From an uncultured Spirochaetales bacterium (GTDB lineage Bacteria > Spirochaetota > Spirochaetia > Sphaerochaetales > Sphaerochaetaceae), in the NCBI GenBank assembly GCA_949292445.1, contig CASEZU010000034.1, forward strand, positions 1 to 20,004: a stretch of 20,004 nucleotides of DNA, given 5' to 3'. The notes under the pieces were generated by a model that worked only from the letters and a program-made list of their open reading frames with translations, did no database searches and was not told the DNA's origin. Both the position numbers and the translations under genes were made by a program. Positions 164 to 16,756 of the stretch are shown here, in pieces; the first letter of the stretch is position 1, and each line of letters opens with the position of its first letter.

Positions 164-183
164 TAATTGCCAGAGCATTTCAG

Positions 184-210
184 AATCCCAGCTTCGGCTG
201 GGATTTTTTT
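184..210 (+). terminator. Intrinsic terminator after the EF-G gene
   Basis: A perfect 9-bp stem (AATCCCAGC at 184-192 with GCTGGGATT at 197-205) is closed by a TTCG tetraloop and runs into a run of T to 210. It is a textbook rho-independent terminator and separates the EF-G gene from the lipoprotein gene. Confidence 0.95.
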
Positions 211-227
211 GCTGCAATGGTTTCAAG

Positions 228-256
228 TTGCATCGCGGCATAGTCTGACATACCAT
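228..256 (+). promoter_or_regulatory. Possible promoter of the GLUG lipoprotein gene
   Basis: TTGCAT (228-233) and TACCAT (251-256) are separated by 17 bp and lie between the upstream terminator and the lipoprotein start at 282. Each box matches four or five of six sigma-70 consensus bases. It is the best candidate in this gap but is weak on its own. Confidence 0.35.
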
Positions 257-281
257 GGAAAAAGAAACGTGGAGGTGATTA

Positions 282-2582
282 ATGCACATCTTTGCAATGA
301 AAAGCAGTAAGGCCCGTTCAATCCGCAGAGGGGGGGGGTATAAGCTAGCAGCAATAGTCCTTTCCTGCTTCATCCTTTTCCTGACGGCATCCTGCCGCAA
401 TAATTCTTATCCGATTATTCTTCCGCCTTTAGCTGATATGAATGCAGGGCCGTCCGGCATTCTGTCCGGCGGAAACGGAACAGTGAGGAGTCCATATCAG
501 GTTGGGAGCTCTTCCGATCTTTCAGATCTTGCTGAACTTGTAAATAATGGTACGCTGTCCCAGCCATATTATTATGAACTGTCCGGTGATATAACGATTG
601 ATGATGAGGCATGGGAGCCGATAGGACGCGCGGCCGGCACCTCTTCCGGTGAGGTGACGGGAACTCCATTTACCGGTATTTTCGAGGGCAATGGGAATAC
701 AATCACGATAAATGTCAGCAGCATGGCAGGAGATGATGCTGCTGCAGGAATCTTCGGTGCTGTGGCCGGTGAGGACACGGTTCTGAGGAATTTCAGCGTG
801 GATGGAAAATTGAAGACGGACAGCGGCTACGCAGGACTCGTTGCCGGCATTCTCACCGATGGGGCAGTCGTTGAAGGTGTAACAACGCTTCCGACAGCCG
901 TCATTGAATCCTCCGGAGATGCTGCCGGATTCGTCGGCAGGATCTATGGCAGCGGTACTATCCGTAACTCCGAGAACAATGCGAGCGTCATTGCCACAGG
1001 CTCAGGAAGCAGAGCCGGCGGTTTCATAAATCTCTCAAAGTTCCCGGAATATGATGGTGCGATCATACTCAGCAACCTGGTCAATAAAGGGGATATTACC
1101 GGTACAAACGGCGGTACAGGCGGAATCGCAGGAGATATTGTTGGGACAAATGCCGATCATCTCTACAATGAAGGAGATGTCTCCGGACAAGGTATGGTCG
1201 GAGGCATTGCAGGTGGAATAGAGGGCGGCTCCTCAGTACAGAATGCCGAGAATAAGGGCACAGTGAAACTTGCTGCTTCAGACGGAGCCGTGAGGAATAT
1301 TGGCGGAATAATCGGCAGGATAAGCGGCGCGGATCATGTAACGCTTTCTGACGTGAAGAACAACGGTCTCTTTGATTTCTCAGATGCAGGTGAATTCTCA
1401 CATTCCTATATCGGCGGTATTGTCGCCTCTTCATATTCTCCTCTCACAATTACGGATGCGGAGAATAATGCTGTGATAAATGCAGCCGGCTCAAACAGCG
1501 TCGGAGGCATCATCGGTGCTACAGAAGAATCTTCCGGAAACTATTATGAACTGGTTATTAACGGCAATACGAAGAACAACGCCTCAATTACAGGGCATGA
1601 TAATGTCGGAGGAATTGCCGGAACTGCGTCTCGCGCTGAAATAATCGGTGCAGGGAACGGTGAGGATGTGACGATCACAGGTGCCAATGGCGTAGGCGGT
1701 ATTGTCGGACGCTTTATCTATGAGGCTGATTCCGTCATCAGCAATTCCCCGAATACAGCTGTGATAGCGGTTTCCCCGGGGCTTTCCTCAGCTGATTCTT
1801 TCGGCGGCATTGCCGGCTCCATCACAGCAGGGTCTCTCCGCATAGAGAGCAGCAGCAACAGCGGAACGTTTGATTTCTCTAATGTCCCTGTTCTGGATGC
1901 CCCCACATCAAATACCAGCCTTCAGCATAACAAAGGATATGGCGGCATTGTCGGAAGTGCTGCGAATTCTTCTTTGACGATTGAAGATTCTGATAACCAT
2001 GCAGACCTTCTGTGCAATGAATATGCCAAGTCGATCGGCGGAATCATCGGCTTGTTCTCAGGCGCAGAGGATTCATCGCTGCGGATTTCCTCTTCGCATA
2101 ATAGCGGGGAAGTGAGCGGATATATGAATATCGGCGGTATCGCAGGTACCGTTTCAAAGGCCGTTCTTGATATTTCCTCTGCCGTAAATGATGGTGATGT
2201 TTCCGGCAATTATTCAGCTGGAGGAATAATCGGTTCCGTCTTTTCATCTTCTGGTTCGGTTGATGAATCATCGAATTCCGGAGACATCTCCTACGGCCCG
2301 CCGGAAGGAAAGGGGCAGGTAGGAATCGGAGGCTTCATAGGATACCTTGCTGCAACAGAGAACCTGGCAGTTTCCGGCGGAAGCAGTACCGGCAATATAA
2401 ATGGTGTAACCAGCTGGTCACATTCCGGAGCATTCCTAGGCAGATGTGAGACAGGAACCTGTGCTTTTACAGATTGCTTTGCGAATAATATGGACCTGCC
2501 TGATGGCATCGGGTTCCATGGAACTGATGTGACCGGGTGCACTTTCTTCGGCTGCAGCCTGAATGGAGCTGATGTAAGCTAG
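282..2582 (+). CDS. GLUG-repeat surface lipoprotein, probably phase variable
   Basis: A 766-residue protein of unknown function. The start ATG at 282 follows a strong ribosome binding site (GGAGGTGAT, 271-279). Residues 1-37 make a basic, then hydrophobic signal peptide ending FLTASC, so Cys38 is the likely lipidated residue; threonine at -3 makes the lipobox atypical, though spirochaetal lipoboxes are relaxed. Residues about 65-180 have the usual opening of GLUG-type proteins (GGNGTVRSPYQV, then FEGNGNTITI). About 18 repeats of the form xGGIxG follow at irregular 25-45 residue spacing, which fits a right-handed beta-solenoid exposed on the surface. Four cysteines lie in the last 50 residues. 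There is no LPXTG or transmembrane anchor. A run of nine G falls in codons 17-19; a change of one G closes the frame. No ATG, GTG or TTG after the tract could restore the signal peptide. The gene stands alone between two terminators. Adhesin or host-interaction roles are inference only. Confidence 0.85.
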   Translation: MHIFAMKSSKARSIRRGGGYKLAAIVLSCFILFLTASCRNNSYPIILPPLADMNAGPSGILSGGNGTVRSPYQVGSSSDLSDLAELVNNGTLSQPYYYELSGDITIDDEAWEPIGRAAGTSSGEVTGTPFTGIFEGNGNTITINVSSMAGDDAAAGIFGAVAGEDTVLRNFSVDGKLKTDSGYAGLVAGILTDGAVVEGVTTLPTAVIESSGDAAGFVGRIYGSGTIRNSENNASVIATGSGSRAGGFINLSKFPEYDGAIILSNLVNKGDITGTNGGTGGIAGDIVGTNADHLYNEGDVSGQGMVGGIAGGIEGGSSVQNAENKGTVKLAASDGAVRNIGGIIGRISGADHVTLSDVKNNGLFDFSDAGEFSHSYIGGIVASSYSPLTITDAENNAVINAAGSNSVGGIIGATEESSGNYYELVINGNTKNNASITGHDNVGGIAGTASRAEIIGAGNGEDVTITGANGVGGIVGRFIYEADSVISNSPNTAVIAVSPGLSSADSFGGIAGSITAGSLRIESSSNSGTFDFSNVPVLDAPTSNTSLQHNKGYGGIVGSAANSSLTIEDSDNHADLLCNEYAKSIGGIIGLFSGAEDSSLRISSSHNSGEVSGYMNIGGIAGTVSKAVLDISSAVNDGDVSGNYSAGGIIGSVFSSSGSVDESSNSGDISYGPPEGKGQVGIGGFIGYLAATENLAVSGGSSTGNINGVTSWSHSGAFLGRCETGTCAFTDCFANNMDLPDGIGFHGTDVTGCTFFGCSLNGADVS
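330..338 (+). repeat. G9 homopolymer tract in the signal-peptide coding region
   Basis: Nine consecutive G encode Gly17-Gly18-Gly19 of the lipoprotein. Nine keeps the frame open. Ten would give GTA TAA directly after the tract; eight would give GGT ATA AGC TAG. Poly-G tracts in coding regions or promoters are known slipped-strand switches in Treponema pallidum and other host-associated bacteria. Confidence 0.9.
741..2448 (+). repeat. GLUG-like repeat array (about 18 protein repeats)
   Basis: Counted by eye, the core xGGIxG or a close variant occurs about 18 times in the lipoprotein, from AAGIFG through VGGIAG, IGGIIG, FGGIAG and AGGIIG to SGAFLG. DNA identity between copies is limited to short stretches, so this is a diverged protein repeat rather than a long exact DNA repeat. 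Repeat spacing is irregular. Confidence 0.75.
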
Positions 2583-2621
2583 GCTGCAGGTCATATCGAT
2601 CATTTTCATCTGAAATGACGG

Positions 2622-2653
2622 CATGGCTCCTCTTGGCGGGAGCCATGTCTTTT
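2622..2653 (+). terminator. Intrinsic terminator after the lipoprotein gene
   Basis: A 9-bp stem CATGGCTCC (2622-2630) pairs with GGAGCCATG (2639-2647) across an 8-base loop and is followed by TCTTTT. It lies 40 bases after the lipoprotein stop and ends just before the -35 box of the MarR promoter. Confidence 0.8.
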
Positions 2654-2657
2654 GCGG

Positions 2658-2686
2658 TTGACATCAGCCTCTTTCAGTTCTAAAAC
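2658..2686 (+). promoter_or_regulatory. Sigma-70 promoter of the marR-exporter operon
   Basis: A perfect -35 box TTGACA (2658-2663), a 17-bp spacer and a -10-like TAAAAC (2681-2686). Transcription would start near 2693, inside the dyad operator. The promoter begins five bases after the terminator of the upstream gene. Confidence 0.6.
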
Positions 2687-2718
2687 AGTTGCAATACCAA
2701 CTGTTGCAAGGACAACTG
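2686..2718 (+). promoter_or_regulatory. Tandem dyad operator, probable MarR autoregulatory site
   Basis: Two inverted repeats of the form GTTG-N6-CAAC lie head to tail with a 15-bp period. The first is CAGTTG (2686-2691) and CAACTG (2698-2703); the second is GTTG (2703-2706) and CAAC (2713-2716). They start at the last base of the -10 box and end two bases before the marR start codon, so bound repressor dimers would block transcription initiation. Short dyads over the promoter are usual for MarR autoregulation. That this MarR protein is the ligand is inferred from position. Confidence 0.6.
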
Positions 2719-2720
2719 TA

Positions 2721-3146
2721 ATGGAAAAGAGACTTCATATGCTTCTTTACAGGGCGTTTCATGGCCAGAAGGCAATGCTCCGTCCTGTCCGCGAGTCGCT
2801 GGGACTGGGACCGGGACAGCCAAAGCTGCTGCTTTTTCTCAGGACAAATGGGCCGGCTCCCCAGCGAGCGATTGCATCGTATTTGCATCTTGATCCTGGG
2901 ACTGTATCCAGGCTTGTGGAGCCGCTTCTGAGGAACGGATTCATTGAGATACTCGGCACAGATGACAGGAGAGTCAACATCATCGCGCTGACAGAGAAGG
3001 GCAGGACAGCCGCAATGGAGTGGGATGAGGCTTGCAGCCGGGCAGAGGAGCGGATGCTTGCCGGCTTCGATGAAGCTGAGAAGGAAACACTCCTGGCCCT
3101 TCTCAAGAGGGTCGCGGCCAACCTCGGGAGCGGAAGCGATGAATGA
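2721..3146 (+). CDS. MarR-family transcriptional repressor of the adjacent exporter
   Basis: A 141-residue MarR-type winged-helix regulator. I chose ATG 2721, preceded by AAGGA at 2708-2712 with 8-base spacing; a TTG start at 2652 would lie in the terminator and upstream of the promoter. The helix-turn-helix is at about residues 46-69 (PQRAIASYLHLDPGTVSRLV), and the wing follows at about 78-89 with the typical DDRRVN and ALTEKG. The length is normal for the family, and terminal helices would form the dimer. It is the first gene of an operon with two ABC half-transporters and overlaps the first of them by 8 bp. MarR proteins next to multidrug-type exporters usually repress their own operon until a small hydrophobic ligand binds. 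The tandem dyad at 2686-2718 fits this. The inducer cannot be told from sequence. Confidence 0.88.
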   Translation: MEKRLHMLLYRAFHGQKAMLRPVRESLGLGPGQPKLLLFLRTNGPAPQRAIASYLHLDPGTVSRLVEPLLRNGFIEILGTDDRRVNIIALTEKGRTAAMEWDEACSRAEERMLAGFDEAEKETLLALLKRVAANLGSGSDE

Positions 3147-4872
3147 TCTCAGACGGCTTTTCTCATATTTCGGCAGATATAGGCGTGATGTGGCCGTTGC
3201 CTGTCTCCTTGTCGCCGTGGAGACATCCTTTGAGCTGACAATCCCCATAATGATGGCGGATCTTGTGGATCTCGGTGTCATGAACAGAGATATCCAGTAT
3301 ATGACGGATAAAGGCCTGCAGATGGCTCTCTGTGCTGTTTTTGCACTTGCAACCGGCCTGATGTACGCCCGTTTTGCTGCCCGCGCGGCTTATGGCTGGG
3401 GAGCTGAGATAAGAAAGGCCGAATACAGGAAGCTGCAGGGATTCGCCTTCTCGGACATAGACAGATTCGAGACATCATCGCTTGTCACCAGGCTCACAAG
3501 CGATGCGACCGTAATGCAGAATGCCATCAATGGGGGACTCAGACCCCTTGTGCGCAGTCCGATACTTCTGGTTCTCGGAGTGGCCTTTTCCTTCATGATG
3601 GATCCGGAACTGGCTTTCATATTCATCATCCTTGCCCCCGTCCTTGGCGTCATACTTTTCCTCATCATAAGGCGTGTCGCTCCGATGTACTCATGGCTGC
3701 AGAAGGCTGTGGACAGGCTCAATGGTGTTGTCGAGGAGAATGTCAGGGCCATAAGGACAGTGAAGGCGTTTGTCAGGGAAGAGTATGAGGAGGGCCGTTT
3801 TGATGAGGCCAACGGAGAGCTGAACAGGATCGGCGTTGAAACCAACCGGTTCGCAGTGCTCAACATGCCTTCCTTCCAGATCGTCGTGTATACGGCGGTG
3901 GTCCTCATAATGTGGTTCGGAGGTGAGAAGATGCTCTCGTCCAGGCTCGAGGTCGGAGCGCTCACAGGTTTCCTCAGCTATGTCATGCAGGTCATGAATT
4001 CCATGATGATGATCTCCAATGTGTTCATGCTTCTGACGCGTTCGCTGGCATCGGCGAAGCGTATCTGCGAGGTTCTTGATACAGAACCGTCGCTGGAGGA
4101 GAAGGCAGAGCCGGTGCAGACCGTTCCAGACGGCAGCATCGATTTCTCCCATGTCTTTTTCCGCTATTCAGCCGCCGCTTCGGAGTATACGCTTTCCGAT
4201 ATCGATTTCAGCATCAGATCAGGAGAGTGCATCGGTATCCTGGGAGGGACCGGAAGCGGCAAGACTTCGCTCGTGCAGCTGATACCAAGGCTTTATGATG
4301 TCTCTTCCGGATCGGTCAGGGTAGGCGGCATCGATGTGCGCGATTATTCACTTGATTCCCTCCGCCGCAGTATCGGCATCGTGCTGCAGAAGAATGTCCT
4401 CTTCTCAGGCACGATCCGTGAGAACATGAGATGGGGAAAGCCGGATGCAACGGACGATGAGATATGGGAAGCCCTCCGCATCGCCGCCGCTGATGACTTT
4501 GTCTCCTCATTTCCCGGAGGCCTTGATTATGACCTCGGGCAGGGCGGAGTGAATGTCTCCGGTGGTCAGAAGCAGAGGCTCTCAATAGCCCGTACCGTAC
4601 TCTCGCATCCAGCAGTGCTGATCTTCGATGATTCCATGAGTGCCGTGGATACCGCCACCGAACGGAAGATAATGGATGGGCTGTCATCGCTCAGCGGTAC
4701 CACAAGGATATTCATAGCGGAACGTATCTCATCCGTGCGTACCGCCGACAGGATCATCGTTCTCGATGACGGGCGCGTGGAGAGCATCGGCGACCATGAG
4801 ACGCTCATGGCGACAAGCCATGTCTACCGCGATATCTGCCGCGCCCAGCTCAAAGGAGGCCGCGATGCCTAA
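3139..4872 (+). CDS. Heterodimeric ABC exporter subunit with a degenerate ATP site (TM287-like)
   Basis: A 577-residue half-transporter. Start ATG 3139 overlaps the marR stop, with GGGAG at 3126-3130 as the binding site. Residues 1-300 form the six-helix exporter domain (helices near 18-40, 58-80, 135-154, 157-178, 240-262, 275-298). The nucleotide-binding domain has Walker A GGTGSGKT (369-376), Q-loop VLQKN, a good signature VSGGQ (473-477) and Walker B LIFDD. Asp498 stands where the catalytic glutamate should be, and Glu528 (FIAERISSV) replaces the switch-loop histidine. These losses mark it as the non-catalytic partner of a heterodimer, as in Thermotoga TM287/TM288 and BmrC/BmrD. Its intact signature would complete the active site of the next protein. 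It sits in the inner membrane and probably exports drugs, lipids or peptides; substrate unknown. The next gene overlaps by 8 bp. Confidence 0.9.
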   Translation: MNDLRRLFSYFGRYRRDVAVACLLVAVETSFELTIPIMMADLVDLGVMNRDIQYMTDKGLQMALCAVFALATGLMYARFAARAAYGWGAEIRKAEYRKLQGFAFSDIDRFETSSLVTRLTSDATVMQNAINGGLRPLVRSPILLVLGVAFSFMMDPELAFIFIILAPVLGVILFLIIRRVAPMYSWLQKAVDRLNGVVEENVRAIRTVKAFVREEYEEGRFDEANGELNRIGVETNRFAVLNMPSFQIVVYTAVVLIMWFGGEKMLSSRLEVGALTGFLSYVMQVMNSMMMISNVFMLLTRSLASAKRICEVLDTEPSLEEKAEPVQTVPDGSIDFSHVFFRYSAAASEYTLSDIDFSIRSGECIGILGGTGSGKTSLVQLIPRLYDVSSGSVRVGGIDVRDYSLDSLRRSIGIVLQKNVLFSGTIRENMRWGKPDATDDEIWEALRIAAADDFVSSFPGGLDYDLGQGGVNVSGGQKQRLSIARTVLSHPAVLIFDDSMSAVDTATERKIMDGLSSLSGTTRIFIAERISSVRTADRIIVLDDGRVESIGDHETLMATSHVYRDICRAQLKGGRDA

Positions 4873-6721
4873 GCACCAGTATTCCGCAAGAAAGCCGAAG
4901 AACCTGAAATACACTGTCTCACGGCTCATGGGTTATCTTGGAAAGGAGAAGTTCGCGTTTGCCGCAGTCGCCGTCCTTGTCCTCGTGAGTGTCTCCTGTG
5001 ATCTTCTCGGCACATACATGATAAAGCCGGTCGTGAACGGGATCCTGGAAGGGGGCGGCGCTGAAAAGCTCCTGAAGGGAGTCATTATGACGGCAGCGAT
5101 ATATCTTGCAGGAGTTGCCGCCGCATTCCTATACACGCAGATAATGGCCAGAACGGCGCAGAAGGTCGTCTATGATATTCGGCGCGATCTTTTCCGCCAT
5201 ATGGAGACGCTTCCCCTCCATTTCTTCGATCAGCGCAGATTCGGAGACATCATGAGCCTCTACACCAATGATGTGGACACGATCTCCGATGCCATGAACA
5301 ACAGTTTCTCCGCCATTATCAAGAGCTTCATGCAGATAGCCGGCACGCTCACCCTGATCATAGTGCTCAACTGGCGTCTCTCTCTTGTCGTAGCTGTAGC
5401 GTACGTTGCCATGTTCCTCTACATACGGTTCAGCGGCAGGCGCAGCAAGCGCTATTACACGCAGCAGCAGGGAAGGCTCGGCGATCTGGACGGGTACATA
5501 CAGGAGATGGTCAACGGGCAGAAGGTCATAAAGGTCTTCTGTCATGAAGATGAGAATATCCGTGGTTTCGAGGAGCGCAATGAGGCGCTCCGCAAGGCAG
5601 GGACAGCGGCCCAGGCCTATGCTGCGACAATGATTCCTGCGGTTGTCAGCATATCATATCTGAATTATGCGATCGTAGCTCTTGTCGGAGGACTCATGGC
5701 TGTGAAGGGATGGACTGATCCTGGGAGCCTCGCAAGCTATCTTGTCTTCGTACGTCAGGCAGCCGGTCCCATAAACCATTTCACGCAGCAGACGAATTTC
5801 CTCCTTTCGGCTCTGGCCGGTGCCGAGAGGATATTCTCTGTGCTTGATGAGAAACCTGAACCGGATGAGGGCTCTGTCACCCTCGAGAAGACGGCAGACG
5901 GATGGCTCTGGAGGAAAGGGGACGGCTCGTCCGTTCCTCTCAGGGGCGATGTGAGAATGGAGAATGTGTCGTTCGGTTATGAGAAGGGCCATGAGGTGCT
6001 CTCCTCTCTAAGCCTCTATGCCCACCCGGGGCAGATGATTGCTTTCGTCGGCTCGACAGGGGCAGGGAAAACCACGATAACAAACCTCATAAACCGCTTC
6101 TATGATGTGGACTCAGGGCGTGTCATTTTTGATGGAATTGACGTGCGGTCAATCCGCAAGGCCGACCTCAGGAGATCCCTCGGCATGGTACTGCAGGACA
6201 CCCATCTCTTCACAGGTACCATCAGGGAGAACATACGCTTCGGCCGCCTTGATGCAGATGATGAGGACATCAGGAAAGCTGCAGCCACTGCCAATGCCGA
6301 CTCATTCATACGCCGTCTGCCTGAGGGATATGACACGATGCTGACAAACGACGGGGCAGGTCTGTCGCAGGGGCAGCGTCAGCTGATAGCCATTGCCAGG
6401 GCAGCTGTCTCCGATCCTCCCGTCCTCATTCTTGATGAGGCCACGTCCTCGATAGACACCAGGACAGAGGACCTCATAGAGAAAGGCATGGACAGGCTTA
6501 TGGAGGGCCGTACCGTATTCGTGATAGCCCACAGGCTGTCCACTGTGCGCAATGCCGATGCGATCATGGTACTGGAGCATGGCAGGATAACCGAACGGGG
6601 CAGCCATGATGAGCTGATGGCCCGGAAGGGATTGTATTACAGGCTCTATATGGGAATGGCAGGGCTTTCCGACAACGATGAGGAACCGGAGGAGAGGCGG
6701 ACGCTTCCTGTGCAGCGGTGA
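4865..6721 (+). CDS. Heterodimeric ABC exporter subunit with the catalytic ATP site (TM288-like)
   Basis: A 618-residue half-transporter, the likely partner of the protein upstream. ATG 4865 overlaps that gene by 8 bp and has a strong site AAAGGAGG (4852-4859). Six transmembrane segments occupy about residues 30-330; the motif HFFDQRRFGDIMSLYTNDVD is typical of type IV exporters. An extra stretch with a WLWRKGDGSSVP segment links this domain to the nucleotide-binding domain. Walker A is GSTGAGKT (396-403), Walker B is LILDEATSS with catalytic Glu525, and the switch histidine is His556 (VIAHRLSTV). The signature is the non-canonical LSQGQ (500-504), as in TM288. Together the two proteins give one hydrolytic site and one degenerate site. 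No convincing terminator follows; the next gene has its own promoter. Confidence 0.9.
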   Translation: MPKHQYSARKPKNLKYTVSRLMGYLGKEKFAFAAVAVLVLVSVSCDLLGTYMIKPVVNGILEGGGAEKLLKGVIMTAAIYLAGVAAAFLYTQIMARTAQKVVYDIRRDLFRHMETLPLHFFDQRRFGDIMSLYTNDVDTISDAMNNSFSAIIKSFMQIAGTLTLIIVLNWRLSLVVAVAYVAMFLYIRFSGRRSKRYYTQQQGRLGDLDGYIQEMVNGQKVIKVFCHEDENIRGFEERNEALRKAGTAAQAYAATMIPAVVSISYLNYAIVALVGGLMAVKGWTDPGSLASYLVFVRQAAGPINHFTQQTNFLLSALAGAERIFSVLDEKPEPDEGSVTLEKTADGWLWRKGDGSSVPLRGDVRMENVSFGYEKGHEVLSSLSLYAHPGQMIAFVGSTGAGKTTITNLINRFYDVDSGRVIFDGIDVRSIRKADLRRSLGMVLQDTHLFTGTIRENIRFGRLDADDEDIRKAAATANADSFIRRLPEGYDTMLTNDGAGLSQGQRQLIAIARAAVSDPPVLILDEATSSIDTRTEDLIEKGMDRLMEGRTVFVIAHRLSTVRNADAIMVLEHGRITERGSHDELMARKGLYYRLYMGMAGLSDNDEEPEERRTLPVQR

Positions 6722-6772
6722 GCGCTGATGTGCAGAATCATTCATTTTCTTGGTGAGTTTCCGTTTCAGCCA

Positions 6773-15856: not shown

Positions 15857-16756
15857 ATGCGCTTGAAGCAATCTAGGCTCGCAAGAGGAGAAGCGTTGAC
15901 AGGATATCTTTTCATCCTGCCTCAGATGCTGGGATTCCTGATTCTGGTGCTGGTTCCTCTTGTAATGGTTTTCGTCTATTCCTTTGAGTCCCGCAACCTC
16001 CTTTTCGGGAATATGGGATTCGCAGGACTGGATAATTACAGGACACTCGTGGAAGATGATCTTTTCTACATGACGCTGAAGAACACGATCATCTTCTCAC
16101 TTGGTGTCGTTCCTCTCAACCTCGTGCTTTCGCTTGCGCTCGCCCTGTACCTCGGGGCGAATGCTGCGGGGGCCAGGGTCGTGAGGAGTGTCATTTTCCT
16201 GCCGGTAATAACCTCCGGAGTCGCCTGGGCGATCGTTTTCAAATATCTTTTCCAGGGGGGGGAAGCCGGACCGATAAATTACATACTCTCGTTCATCGGG
16301 ATAGAAGGGCCGAACTGGCTCCACGAGAAGGGCTGGGCAATGACAGCCGTTGTCATCTCCAGAGTCCTGAAGAATCTCGGTATGAACGTGCTGATCTTCA
16401 TGGGTGCCGTTATGAATCTTCCGCAGGATGTTCTCGAGGCAGGGAAGATAGACGGCGCGACGAAACCCGTTCTTTTCTGGAAGATAAAACTCCCTCTTCT
16501 GATGCCGTCGATTCTCATGGTGATGATTGTGACGGTGATCGGTTCCATGAGGGTCTTCGATACGATAAAGCTCATGACCGACGGCGGTCCGGAAGGCTCT
16601 ACGATGGTGCTTGTCTACTACATCTACCATCAGGCTTTCAAGACATTCAACATCGGTTACGCTTCGGCTGTGGCGGTGGTTCTGTTCCTGATAGTCCTGC
16701 TGCTCACGATCATCCAGTGGTCGCTCAGGAGGAAGGCATCGTATTATGAAGACTAG
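15857..16756 (+). CDS. Sugar ABC transporter permease, MalF/UgpA type
   Basis: A 299-residue inner-membrane permease with six likely membrane segments (first near residues 17-42). ATG 15857 follows AGGGGAGG (15845-15852), 17 bases after the upstream stop. The EAA loop that contacts the ATPase is at about 194-213 (EAGKIDGATKPVLFWKIKLP). Conserved MalF-branch features include RSVIFLPVITSGVAWAIVFK and a final segment TDGGPEGSTMVLVYYIYHQAF. A run of eight G (16255-16262) falls in the loop codons QGGE of residues 133-136. The next permease gene begins 11 bp before this one ends, so the two are probably translationally coupled and form a heterodimer. No ATPase gene is present in the operon. Confidence 0.93.
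   Translation: MRLKQSRLARGEALTGYLFILPQMLGFLILVLVPLVMVFVYSFESRNLLFGNMGFAGLDNYRTLVEDDLFYMTLKNTIIFSLGVVPLNLVLSLALALYLGANAAGARVVRSVIFLPVITSGVAWAIVFKYLFQGGEAGPINYILSFIGIEGPNWLHEKGWAMTAVVISRVLKNLGMNVLIFMGAVMNLPQDVLEAGKIDGATKPVLFWKIKLPLLMPSILMVMIVTVIGSMRVFDTIKLMTDGGPEGSTMVLVYYIYHQAFKTFNIGYASAVAVVLFLIVLLLTIIQWSLRRKASYYED

Follow-up and report, generated by a model that had tools for sequence, protein, structure and literature searches.

A poly-G tract in the signal peptide of a spirochaete lipoprotein gene as a candidate phase-variation switch

Does a run of nine Gs near the start of a spirochaete lipoprotein gene allow the cell to turn that gene on and off? The question arose from the initial annotation of 20,004 nucleotides of an uncultured Spirochaetales bacterium, the whole stretch of DNA analyzed here (the window), which proposed such a switch. 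We give a probability of roughly 0.86 to the reading that the tract is a translational phase-variation switch of the lipoprotein gene. The proposal is supported by the positions of repeats in relatives, by the frames of these repeats, and by other tracts that are linked to lipoprotein genes.

According to the proposed mechanism, slipped-strand mispairing at replication would add or remove Gs in the tract. At a length of nine Gs, a single frame would run from the start codon through the signal peptide into the mature lipoprotein (ON). A length that differs by a non-multiple of three would bring in a stop codon a few codons past the tract, ahead of the hydrophobic core, and no lipoprotein would be exported (OFF). 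Random switching would then produce a mixed population, and the benefit may lie in a diversity that counters antibodies, phages, or a change of ligands. We infer that slippage occurs at positions 330-338 in living cells, and hence that this gene may switch. The window alone cannot show switching, and the case beyond chance therefore rests on relatives.

The tract, its reading frame, and the flanking sequence

Features of the locus and the evidence for each are listed in Table 1.

Table 1. Features of the lipoprotein locus (window coordinates)
Feature	Position	Strand	Basis or remark
Intrinsic terminator of upstream gene	182..210	+	11-bp stem, 4-nt loop, T run
Weak promoter candidate (TTGCAT, 17 nt, TACCAT)	228..256	+	By eye; putative
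Shine-Dalgarno sequence GGAGGTG, 5' of ATG	271..277	+	Sequence
Lipoprotein gene, 766 aa	282..2582	+	Open reading frame list; in frame (ON) in assembly
Second in-frame ATG, also 5' of G9 tract	297..299	+	Sequence
G9 tract, Gly17-19, in signal peptide n-region; proposed slipped-strand switch	330..338	+	Same position in relatives
Signal peptide hydrophobic region and lipobox ending in Cys38	342..395	+	Sequence, alignment, model
Mature part: predicted long beta-solenoid, GLUG-like repeats, no catalytic domain recognized	393..2579	+	Model, fold search, Pfam

The frame logic can be read directly from the DNA and agrees with what was first described. The nine Gs form codons 17 to 19 (GGG GGG GGG) in frame with the lipoprotein gene, beginning 48 nt past the A of the ATG. 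One additional G gives GTA and then TAA, and loss of one G gives GGT ATA AGC and then TAG, closing the gene within five codons in both directions. The sequence also bears out that no in-frame ATG, GTG, or TTG occurs from the tract to the Cys38 codon. The tract is a pure short repeat in the 5' coding region, and slips of one unit either way close the gene, whereas length changes by three keep it open. The signal peptide reads MHIFAMKSSKARSIRR-GGG-YKLAAIVLSCFILFLTAS-C, with the tract directly before the hydrophobic core. As read from sequence, it has the positive n-region, hydrophobic core, and lipobox Cys of a lipoprotein, and Cys38 is unchanged in all 12 aligned sequences.

By its length alone the tract is unusual, though possible by chance: a simple base-composition model predicts about 0.17 runs of at least nine Gs per 20 kb on one strand. 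There is no other run of at least nine Gs or Cs in the 20-kb window. GGG is the rarest glycine codon of the lipoprotein gene (17 of 129), and three in a row are expected at about 0.14% from codon usage alone (14/126 cubed). The window contains one G8 run (16255-16262), located inside, and not close to the start codon of, an open reading frame (15857-16756) that appears by eye to encode an ABC permease-like protein; this run looks ordinary. The only second allele found, P0001, is identical at 763 of 766 residues and retains Gly-Gly-Gly in its protein sequence.

Upstream, EF-G ends with its C-terminus 5' of the terminator, which has a predicted fold of -16.9 kcal/mol (z -4.6). Given this terminator, the lipoprotein gene looks like a unit of its own. 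A consensus scan listed neither the terminator nor the promoter candidate, and no promoter was called with confidence. A switch of the type known for TP0126, with the tract as promoter spacer, was ruled out at this locus because the tract lies 3' of the Shine-Dalgarno sequence and the ATG; TTGACA is absent from position 165 up to the tract. The lipoprotein gene, a MarR regulator, and two ABC transporter genes make up a block (164-6737) that looks like a lineage-specific insertion or loss, because it is missing between EF-G and a KaiC-like gene in two genomes, G341 (L014) and G276 (L016).

Repeats at lipoprotein signal peptides in related genomes

For comparison we used 48 genomes from the genus of G250, a genome picked from a sample of the phylum for a 4-alpha-glucanotransferase that is 85% identical to that of the window; the window species may lie outside this genus. 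Among the homologues listed for this enzyme, the first to carry a name at genus level is Candidatus Ornithospirochaeta (P0172, 66% identical). A search with the lipoprotein found matches in 20 of the 48 genomes, and an orthologue search of genome contigs found eight loci, all distant.

The closest match among the 48 genomes (L020 in G402, 58% identical) has A9G9 at the same site. Its ATG frame is shut right past the tract, while the lipoprotein frame stays open over 752 aa. L021 (G416, 39% identical) has G9 at the same site, a closed start-codon frame, and a lipoprotein frame open for 731 aa. More distant members carry (AG)12 (L023 in G409) or (AG)15 (L042 in G341) between the ATG and the core, both out of frame. 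Some members of the family have no repeat at the signal-peptide site (e.g., L022 and L033), and others have a tract in the promoter. Tract length, which the initial annotation had singled out for comparison among relatives, does differ, as do the frames. Interruption by other glycine codons, named there as a sign against a switch, was found in none of the relatives examined, which have a pure repeat in another frame or (AG)n. Fixed poly-glycine was ruled out because in relatives the repeat is out of frame or is (AG)n. Differing repeats at one anatomical site and in differing phases are what a switch would predict, and what neither chance nor coding constraint would.

The three nearest protein relatives after P0001 (P0002, P0003, and P0004), known from protein sequences alone, begin within the hydrophobic core, as would the output of a gene caller confronted with an out-of-frame start. 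Signal peptides are complete in P0006 and P0007. For the out-of-frame relative in L188, the open reading frame finder starts at an internal TTG and returns 743 aa; P0002 likewise has 743 aa. These cases (P0002-P0004 and the relative in L188) are a warning for annotation, as out-of-frame lipoproteins tend to receive false internal starts. The region L188:2994-10161 of G402 encodes three adjacent lipoproteins, and each gene carries a separate tract. Two of the tracts are G9 in the signal peptide and out of frame; the third is a G8 in the promoter spacer.

Across the genus, we assembled 31 loci from places matching a start-codon pattern, places with (GA)8, the window, and L020. The pattern required a Shine-Dalgarno sequence, an ATG, and at least eight Gs within 45 nt, and of its 23 distinct places 21 were used. 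At 28 of the 31 loci the repeat lies between the start codon and the core, with a lipoprotein core and lipobox right behind it. The other three were not scored as lipoproteins: the tract of L130 is of promoter type, L150 reaches the contig end, and L156 shows no lipoprotein. Position and frame are direct observations here. Eight of the 28 are in frame (six G tracts including the window, and two GA arrays) versus 9.3 expected to be ON at random phase, near one in three, and 20 are out of frame (14 G and 6 GA), so repeat phase varies among related loci. The 20 out-of-frame loci are otherwise open as far as the DNA examined reaches. The number of pattern matches is weak as proof, because the pattern is not specific (14 of 48 genomes matched, versus 9 of 48 for the reversed control); the evidence is the downstream sequence.

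Arrays of (GA)8 or longer in the 48 genomes occur at eight distinct loci (L160-L167), all eight in the n-regions of lipoprotein signal peptides, where they encode an Arg-Glu run. A signal-peptide family in G347 (MEKIRRSIL) has copies with 9, 10, and 11 Gs. Four further signal-peptide tracts were identified outside the set of 28; L065, L228, and L259 are out of frame and L238 is in frame. The G9 of L238 encodes the residues directly preceding the lipobox Cys.

Promoter-spacer tracts, the census, and other explanations

A number of lipoprotein paralogues carry their G tract within the promoter, arranged as TTGACA, 8-9 nt, G8-G10, and a TA-type -10. The pattern TTGACAN{5,12}G7N{0,6}TANNNT matched 34 of the 48 genomes in the G250 genus, whereas its reversed control matched none of the 48. 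In the family, genus included, it matched 50 of 139 genomes (control 0), and in the phylum sample 80 of 392 (control matches in 4 genomes). We inspected 30 promoter-type loci (L080-L109); an open reading frame was found within 400 nt at 24 of them, and none was found at six. By eye, 23 of these 24 reading frames begin with lipoprotein signal peptides and one (L081) with an ordinary signal peptide.

Among the matches listed, which extend to genome G410, 138 promoters have a -35/-10 spacer of 14-23 nt (mode 19) and a tract of 7-12 (mode 9), after trimming of second readings of the same tract and omission of the doubtful G398:C4. The mode of 19 exceeds the optimum of 17 given for TP0126 of Treponema pallidum, whose tract lies between the -35 and -10 (PMC7864442). 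We grouped copies within one genome that have an identical -35-side spacer and an identical -10. Among the matches listed there are 15 such groups, and the number of Gs differs in 12 and is equal in 3; the length differences between otherwise identical promoter copies are thus observed directly. In G401, the tract lengths of five copies are G9, G9, G8, G9, and G8, although the sequence shown after the tract is identical, as far as the lipoprotein start if the contig reaches it. Where the contig shows them, the promoter, ribosome site, and signal peptide (MKKSILIGVLAALMLFAFTAC) are common to the G401 copies, and the mature parts are divergent. Near-identical cassettes with G8, G9, or G11 were seen in this genome at L110, L112, and L115-L121.

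Tracts of at least nine Gs were searched in five genomes, and all those of G402, G416, and G341 (19, 16, and 11, respectively) were classified by hand; G409 and G250 were left out of this census. In total, 36 of 46 tracts lie in or just before lipoprotein genes, which is not an unbiased rate because the three genomes were chosen for holding relatives of the gene. They comprise 28 tracts that form the spacer within a -35/-10-like pair ahead of a lipoprotein (TTGACC or TTGACT in some cases), five tracts in signal-peptide n-regions, one in a lipobox, and two before a lipoprotein without a clear -35; the other 10 have no lipoprotein link. Each of the three genomes has 8 to 14 lipoprotein genes with a candidate poly-G switch. 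An automatic detector scored 33 of the 46 tracts. For comparison, in six loci from related genomes it scored 480 of 6,000 random positions, and among G5-G6 runs in these loci and the window it scored 7 of 61. It missed L224 and L225, which are lipoproteins by sequence, and L238. In a broader sample, consisting of the first listed tract of at least nine Gs in each of 30 genomes, 10 of 30 were judged to be linked to lipoproteins: eight of promoter type (including L063, at a contig end with no visible gene) and two of signal-peptide type. The remainder included one promoter-like tract without a lipoprotein and 19 that are neither. Many, not all, long G tracts are candidates for switches. A raw excess of G9 was not usable as a measure, as counts are near the simple expectation for 2 Mb; position alone is informative.

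The likeliest of the alternatives, although we consider it improbable, is that RNA polymerase or the ribosome slips on the tract, yielding an in-frame fraction that is fixed at any DNA length and tunes expression with no switching. Slippage is plausible at long G tracts and at the A9G9 run in L020. The OFF state may not be silent, as G or A tracts can make RNA polymerase slip, and some leakage from OFF alleles is likely. However, genes of this class also use (GA)n arrays and poly-G promoter spacers, and a change in DNA length would cover all of these, whereas transcript slippage would not; moreover, the promoter copies do vary in DNA length. We regard as very unlikely a chance run of GGG codons retained without function in a flexible n-region. 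Such a region tolerates glycines, and about 0.17 runs are expected per 20 kb on one strand, but chance was rejected as the main explanation because the repeat position recurs in relatives: repeats that differ in sequence occupy corresponding sites in 28 lipoprotein genes, and in 20 of these the repeat is out of frame while the rest of the gene is open over the DNA examined. Least probable of all is that the OFF frames of relatives are assembly or sequencing errors; assemblies can miscount homopolymers, the relatives are many-contig genomes, and errors at G9 and (GA)n are possible, but errors leave the placement of repeats at lipoprotein signal peptides and promoters unexplained.

Returning to phase variation, the sequence comparisons indicate that the window locus belongs to a larger lipoprotein system, one of a known, Opa-like kind. 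It is likely that most species of an uncultured spirochaete genus, related to the chicken-gut Candidatus Ornithospirochaeta, have a lipoprotein "phasome." Its candidate switches would be built interchangeably as promoter-spacer poly-G, n-region poly-G or (GA)n, and once as lipobox poly-G. Part of the system would have a common promoter-plus-signal-peptide cassette fused to divergent mature parts, and each cell would show one of very many lipoprotein coats.

The mature protein and comparison with known systems

AlphaFold2, supplied with the 12-sequence alignment, predicts a beta-solenoid with a mean pLDDT of 86.1. Residues 1-54 are mostly below 50, and a helix at residues 22-34, in the signal peptide, is predicted with low confidence. 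The only solved structure with E <0.001 in the fold search is 3n6z from Bacteroides ovatus (E 9e-5); IgA1 protease chains are among the weaker matches. Our reading of the window protein is a scaffold of repeats or a surface protein resembling an adhesin, not an enzyme. It is probably a cell-surface or outer-membrane beta-helix, with surface exposure suggested by the repeat-rich beta-solenoid. The earlier label of "GLUG-repeat" lipoprotein finds weak support in this protein: relatives P0003 (29.5 bits) and P0004 (82.5 bits) pass the cut-off of 20.5 for the Pfam GLUG motif (PF07581), but the window protein, at 8.9 bits, falls below it. "GLUG-like beta-helix" is the safer description.

The mechanism as such is not new, and the best-known cases of simple-repeat phase variation are in pathogens. 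Neisseria PilC has poly-G in the signal-peptide region of an exported protein, as in the window gene, and the two differ in protein class. The Vlp lipoproteins of Mycoplasma hyorhinis have poly-A in the promoter spacer and join a common cassette, made up of promoter and signal peptide, to mature parts that diverge. The G401 cassettes have the same layout, with a homopolymer in the spacer and divergent mature parts, but the homopolymer is poly-G, the bacteria are unrelated, and the putative switch in the window is translational. In Neisseria Opa, CTCTT repeats occupy the coding region of the leader peptide, and slippage shifts the frame (PMC3960869). The window gene resembles Opa in having its repeat in the leader peptide of a putative surface protein, where slippage would shift the frame. 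The genus differs in having mono- and dinucleotide repeats, lipoproteins instead of beta-barrels, and a place among gut spirochaetes.

Poly-G switching in Treponema pallidum, invoked when the tract was first described, is indeed documented: PMC7864442 covers poly-G promoters of TP0126, TprE/G/J, and TprL, with a tprL tract of 7 to 11, and 76% of 17 poly-G targets clearly variable as measured. That organism is likewise a spirochaete with poly-G at surface proteins, and the promoter type occurs at other genes of the window's relatives. Its switch is transcriptional and controls outer-membrane proteins, however, whereas the window tract is inside the open reading frame. Literature searches, which covered few subscription papers, found no report combining GLUG with phase variation, which is no proof of novelty, and none combining Sphaerochaeta with phase variation. 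Ornithospirochaeta is named in three papers, and further searches turned up work on Treponema pallidum, Neisseria, Helicobacter, and mycoplasmas, among others.

If the switch is real, apparent commensals too would gamble with their surface, and control of this kind would recur at lipoproteins in most species of a gut spirochaete genus. This would represent a second, non-syphilis spirochaete system, with poly-G switches that could be counted directly in gut metagenome reads. Outside the family, many promoter-spacer matches were also seen in G340, G353, G040, G159, and G270, some of those in G340 with 12 to 17 Gs.
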